A DNA stretch of 64,000 nt from positions 1,586,001 through 1,650,000 of the forward strand of contig JALDRJ010000002.1 in the NCBI GenBank assembly GCA_031315865.1. The letters are read 5' to 3'. How positions within the stretch are numbered: position 1 is the first letter of the stretch; each line of letters begins with the position of its first letter. Positions 5,838-51,418 of this stretch are shown piece by piece. A program made the translations under genes and the position numbers. The DNA is from Nitrospirales bacterium (GTDB lineage: Bacteria > Nitrospirota > Nitrospiria > Nitrospirales > UBA8639). Under the pieces are notes generated by a model. It searched no databases, had not been told where the DNA came from, and saw nothing but the letters and a program-made list of their open reading frames with translations.

Positions 5838-5930
5838 TATAGCCGTTTCAAATAATTTCCATATGGTTCAACGTCGTACCGCGCGGAGTTTGTCGTCTGT
5901 ATTGATTGGAACGTATGTGGATTCGCTATA
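5838..5930 (+). repeat. 93-bp dispersed repeat, copy 1 (MITE-like)
   Basis: A 93-bp intergenic sequence starting TATAGCC and ending CGCTATA. It recurs in inverted orientation at 51326-51418 with 86 of 93 positions identical by hand alignment and no gaps. Both copies begin and end at the same points, with TATAGC/GCTATA as terminal inverted repeats. It has no coding capacity. The ends fit a miniature element inserted at a TA dinucleotide, as IS630/Tc1-type transposases do. A conserved non-coding RNA or regulatory element is the alternative. Confidence 0.75.
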
Positions 5931-51325: not shown

Positions 51326-51418
51326 TATAGCGAATCCAGATAAATTCCAATCGATACAGACGACAAACCCCGCGCGGTACGACGTTGAACCATACGGAAG
51401 TTATTTGAAACGGCTATA
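51326..51418 (-). repeat. 93-bp dispersed repeat, copy 2 (MITE-like)
   Basis: Inverted copy of the element at 5838-5930: the reverse complement begins TATAGCCGTTTCAAATAA and ends GGATTCGCTATA. Identity is 86/93 with no gap (7 substitutions, clustered toward the right end). It lies between the CobW GTPase and pentapeptide genes, which both run toward it, so it is not in a promoter region here. Confidence 0.75.

Follow-up and report, generated by a model that had tools for sequence, protein, structure and literature searches.

We analyzed a 64,000-nucleotide stretch of the 3.78 Mb genome of a Nitrospirales bacterium (hereafter the window; its genome, G000, is assembled in two contigs), which carries two copies of a 93-bp repeat in opposite orientations. 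Copy 1 lies at positions 5838–5930 on the plus strand and copy 2 at positions 51326–51418 on the minus strand. As an earlier note on this DNA had described, the two copies are identical at 86 of 93 positions without gaps (BLASTN within the genome, E = 2e-33), and both start with TATAGC and end with GCTATA. A repeat search of the whole window returned this pair as its sole long inverted repeat (92% complementarity), and the best other ungapped match to the 93-mer in the window reaches only 47 of 93 positions. A search with profile R1 likewise found only these two copies in the window, both full length, scoring 96.4 bits (copy 1) and 98.3 bits (copy 2, the best match of the genome). The homology stops at the ends of the element, the 60-bp flanks of the two copies matching at only 17 and 13 of 60 positions. 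Compared by BLASTN with its nearest other copies in the genome, copy 1 shows 92–94% identity.

Copy 1 consists of an element proper of 89 bp, TAGCC...GCTA (5840–5928, plus strand), and two outer TA dinucleotides at 5838–5839 and 5929–5930, to which no strand is assigned and which would represent the left and right halves of a target-site duplication. Counted with the outer TA, the left terminal inverted repeat of copy 1 spans 5838–5861 (plus strand; family consensus TATAGCCGTTTCAAATAACTTCCG) and the right one spans 5907–5930 (plus strand; family consensus TGGAACGTATTTGGATTCGCTATA). The terminal repeats of copy 2, named in the orientation of the element, are both on the minus strand: the left one is at 51395–51418 (contig positions 1637395–1637418), where the pattern TATAGCCGTTTCAAATAACTTCCG is matched exactly, and the right one is at 51326–51349, inside a match to the right-end pattern with three mismatches (contig positions 1637326–1637353). 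The region around copy 1 was also scanned for promoters and terminators, and no site fell inside the element.

Copy number and distribution of the repeat

The number of copies in the genome, which the earlier note had singled out for counting by BLASTN, is far greater than two. BLASTN returned at least 40 matches to the 93-mer in G000, and a profile made from sequence alone, with 47 copies as input, returned 72 matches at a cut-off of E ≤ 0.01. The same profile matched all four of the other genomes sampled in the genus, with at least 148 matches in G003, at least 131 in G002, 81 in G004, and 27 in G001; some of the weakest profile matches, those near E = 0.01, may be due to chance. Outside the genus, there were no matches in 93 sampled genomes searched by BLASTN and none in 113 sampled genomes searched with the profile under stricter filters; a scan for the exact core pattern in a genome contig collection, from which the window's genome and those near it were possibly excluded, also gave no match. 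Among the genomes sampled, the family occurs in this genus alone. In a FastTree tree, the copies of G000, except L064, grouped apart from those of the relatives, which points to a lineage-specific amplification as far as the weak resolution of such short sequences allows.

The element carries no coding content: the copies are 93 or ~186 bp long, and no predicted gene covers any of the 46 G000 copies examined. In these 46 copies, any overlap with a predicted gene amounts to 30 bases or less, and predicted genes occupy ~70% of the window. The overlap was judged with a home-made ORF caller, which is rough and left some neighbors unassigned; the result shows a preference for intergenic positions rather than exact distances to genes.

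Filled and empty target sites

The earlier note had proposed a TA target and a search for empty sites, and empty sites holding one target dinucleotide were found in two settings. The first is a comparison between species. A filled site in the sister genome G002 reads GCAACGGC-TA[TAGCC...GCTA]TA-GACGTGTAA, and its empty counterparts read GCAACGTC-TG-GGAGTGTAA in G004 and CAGCGTC-TG-GATGTGTAA at one locus of G003, both carrying TG and not TA. A second G003 locus at the same site reads GCAACGTC-TATA-GCCGTGTAA, in which the TATA may be the footprint of an excision or simply an empty site. The second setting lies within G000, where copy L007 is nested inside a ~200-bp repeat of a second family and reads gctgttcgC-TA[...]TA-ACTCAAATG, and two uninterrupted members of that second family read tctgttcgG-TA-ACTCATATG (L079) and gctgatcgG-TA-ACTCACATG (L078). 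Both settings fit insertion of the element between duplicated TA dinucleotides. In the four relatives, the intergenic regions orthologous to those of the two window copies have no element at that position and are too diverged for the target to be read base by base; we infer the TA duplication at copy 1 by analogy with the filled and empty sites elsewhere. The insertion sites differ between species. The G003 intergenic region orthologous to that of window copy 1 (L190) seems, judged by eye from the alignment, to hold a strongly decayed copy at a different position; in the reverse complement of that locus, it would lie no more than ~300 bases upstream of position 1501.

These sites also bear on the explanation that ordinary intergenic sequence was copied by segmental or recombinational duplication, without any transposition. 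Flanks are indeed shared by L007, L011, L013, L025, L055, and L056, all of which lie in the second repeat family, but the flanks of most copies are unrelated, and the full-length copies share identical end points. Moreover, between filled and empty sites the difference consists of the element and a dinucleotide, which contradicts such a duplication, and we consider its probability to be negligible.

Conservation and folding of the element

The full-length copies are 92–95 bp long, with a consensus of TATAGCC at the 5' end and GCTATA at the 3' end, and all of them end at the same place. The terminal inverted repeats that the earlier note had taken to be short are present, but they are not confined to 6 bp: the 24 bases at one end agree with the reverse complement of the 24 at the other end at 17 positions, giving imperfect repeats of ~24 bp. 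When the consensus of the G000 copies is compared with that of the relatives, the left end is identical at 24 of 24 columns and the right end at 26 of 27, whereas the interior is identical at only 31 of 47 (~66%). The copies of the relatives show the same pattern, diverging from their consensus by ~5% at the ends and by 24.9% in the middle. The contrast is weaker in G000 (~8% at the ends versus 12% in the middle), perhaps because the copies there stem from one amplification that has since decayed. There is also a long form of ~186 bp, which has its first ~13 bases and its right 70–75 bases in common with the short form.

The earlier note had allowed that internal conservation might reflect a conserved functional RNA, that is, a many-copy RNA or riboregulator in which the terminal repeats form the closing stem. 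Some folding results are in line with this proposal: the two strands of copy 2 fold better than shuffled sequences (z = −2.0 and −1.55), and in the relatives' copies taken alone, the terminal repeats fold into a stem of −10.9 kcal/mol. However, copy 1 folds no better than its shuffles (z = −0.12), the relatives' copies yield nothing on either strand beyond the terminal stem that the repeats must form, and RNAalifold found no pairs over 47 copies. There were no Rfam matches in the window at gathering thresholds, and we rejected a structured non-coding RNA family on the combined lack of an Rfam match and of a conserved fold over those 47 copies. The interior is the fast-changing part of the element, with a divergence in the relatives roughly five times that of the ends, the insertion sites vary between species, and the empty sites contradict an RNA as the main explanation. 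We therefore regard a functional RNA as highly improbable.

An IS630-family element with matching ends

An intact-looking element of the IS630 family, ~0.9 kb in length, was found in Nitrospira HKST-UBA08 (L107, positions 1495–2393). It encodes the domains HTH_Tnp_IS630 (E = 9.9e-27) and DDE_3 (E = 2.8e-33) in two frames, and the junction between these frames lies at a run of A, an arrangement like that of programmed frameshifting. The ends of the element are TATAGTCATTCCAAATAAGTTCCT and TATAGTTATTCCAAATAAGTTCCA, and its 24-bp ends match those of the 93-bp repeat at 18–20 positions, with best values of 19 of 24 at one end and 20 of 24 at the other; no position among 732,234 in other loci did better than 17 of 24. 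Comparison of the two interiors by blastn and tblastx gave only short chance matches, so the repeat did not arise from this insertion sequence (IS) by simple internal deletion.

G003, from a sister species, also contains a decayed DDE_3 (PF13358) relic, one end of which, ATGGAACTTACTTGGAATGACTATA, matches the right end of the repeat at 19 of 25 positions; a left end was sought for this relic and not found. Its closest relative is the HKST-UBA08 element, with 92% identity over 49 residues, a query that was read from the relic with a frame break bridged and that served as a search probe only. Because the relic and the HKST-UBA08 element are related to each other, they do not count as independent evidence. 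The IS630 element of G001 (L100) has no end comparable to those of the repeat. A search of G000 for DDE_3 (PF13358) gave no match, and no IS630/DDE_3 transposase was detected there; since this genome is 98% complete and in two contigs, it is possible but unlikely that one was missed.

Given these observations, the 93-bp sequence is very probably a non-autonomous MITE that was moved in trans by a transposase of the IS630 family (Tc1/mariner superfamily) at TA. The earlier note's suggestion of a miniature transposable element targeting TA is supported by the many sharp-ended copies, the range limited to the genus, the empty sites, and the transposon with matching ends. The only working parts of such a MITE would be its two imperfect 24-bp terminal inverted repeats, beginning with TATAGC. 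An IS630-family transposase supplied in trans would recognize these ends, excise the element, and insert it at a TA, which would thereby be duplicated on each side. Judging from the sequence comparisons, it was probably an IS630-type transposase that actually moved the present copies. In G000, given that no DDE_3 transposase is detectable, the copies are probably fossils and would now be immobile.

A MITE of the same kind might instead have been moved by a TA-targeting transposase outside the IS630 family, the similarity of the ends being convergent. A TA duplication alone cannot identify the family of the transposase, no IS630 transposase was detected in G000, and the interior of the MITE is unrelated to that of the IS. 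Nevertheless, both ends of the HKST-UBA08 element match the MITE at 19–20 of 24 positions, above every one of the null positions, and the relic of the same transposase sits in G003, a genome with at least 148 MITE profile matches. We thus see little likelihood in a mover from another family and retain the IS630-family transposase as the preferred explanation.

Comparison with known repeats

The repeats described here form a real and well-supported MITE family, which is apparently undescribed and belongs to a known kind of bacterial repeat; the titles and abstracts of open-access literature on Nitrospira with MITEs or IS630 gave no sign of it. Compared by published features, and with membership in neither group being claimed, the family appears to work like RUP, the repeat unit of pneumococcus, and resembles the Correia elements. 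The ends of Correia elements start with TATAG, as do those of the present family. Correia or NEMIS elements of Neisseria are ~107 and 155 bp long, with 24-bp terminal repeats and TA at the termini (PMC2229807). They thus share with the present family the length of the terminal repeats, the terminal TA, and the occurrence of two size forms with common ends (here ~93 and ~186 bp), but they differ in host and in that no IS with matching ends has been reported for Correia elements (PMC2229807), whereas one is found here.

RUP is 107 bp long, has terminal repeats listed as 9 bp, and is proposed to be mobilized by IS630-Spn1; up to a 2007 review, it was the only bacterial repeat for which an IS with matching ends had been found (PMC2229807). 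The present family is similar to RUP in length, intergenic location, copy number (tens to hundreds), TA target, lack of a gene, and IS630-family-like ends. The host is different, however, the terminal repeats are ~24 bp rather than 9 bp, and RUP has a named IS partner within its own host, in contrast to G000, where the search for DDE_3 found no transposase. The ERIC or IRU sequences of enterobacteria are also short, intergenic, and flanked by TA with inverted ends. For these, a terminal repeat length of 7 bp is listed, and transcripts of such repeats are described as having stable long stem-loops (PMC2229807), in contrast to the Nitrospira family, in which no conserved internal fold was found. 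Full IS of the IS630 family and Tc1/mariner superfamily, such as ISY100, have the TA target and matching terminal repeats in common with the 93-bp element, which lacks the transposase gene.

Short mobile repeats shape intergenic regions, and the transposase from which they derive is often unknown. The present family, from Nitrospira, is a further case in which IS ends match, TA empty sites exist, and amplification is species-specific. With it, ~30 to 150 intergenic repeats in each genome are explained, and annotation and strain typing gain a marker that is ready for use.

Nested, chimeric, and truncated copies

The second repeat family is ~200 bp long and MITE-like, with TA at both ends (TA-CTAATCCGCT...AGCGGATTAG-TA). 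Its members include L079 (about positions 1455–1657), L075, L077, L078, L081, L082, L085, and L089, and its right part has 26 matches in the genome. In L011, L013, L025, L055, and L056, the 93-mer is nested in this second family at the same position and with the same altered outer base (GATAGCC); the common position and the GATAGCC suggest that the composite was itself multiplied. At two further loci, L087 and L091, the left part of the 186-bp form is fused to the right end of the second family, at junctions that differ slightly between the two chimeras. Chimeras of this type would have mismatched ends, and amplification of the MITE might therefore not be ordinary end-matched transposition. 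From the nesting, the composite found at several loci, and the chimeras, of which there are at least two, we see a small but appreciable chance that the two TA-flanked MITE families exchange parts and that amplification might tolerate or generate mosaics by a process other than ordinary end-matched transposition.

A truncated form was observed at L067 (G000:C2, near positions 490167–490190), a ~44-bp remnant that keeps both MITE ends, lacks most of the middle, and adjoins a tRNA-like sequence.
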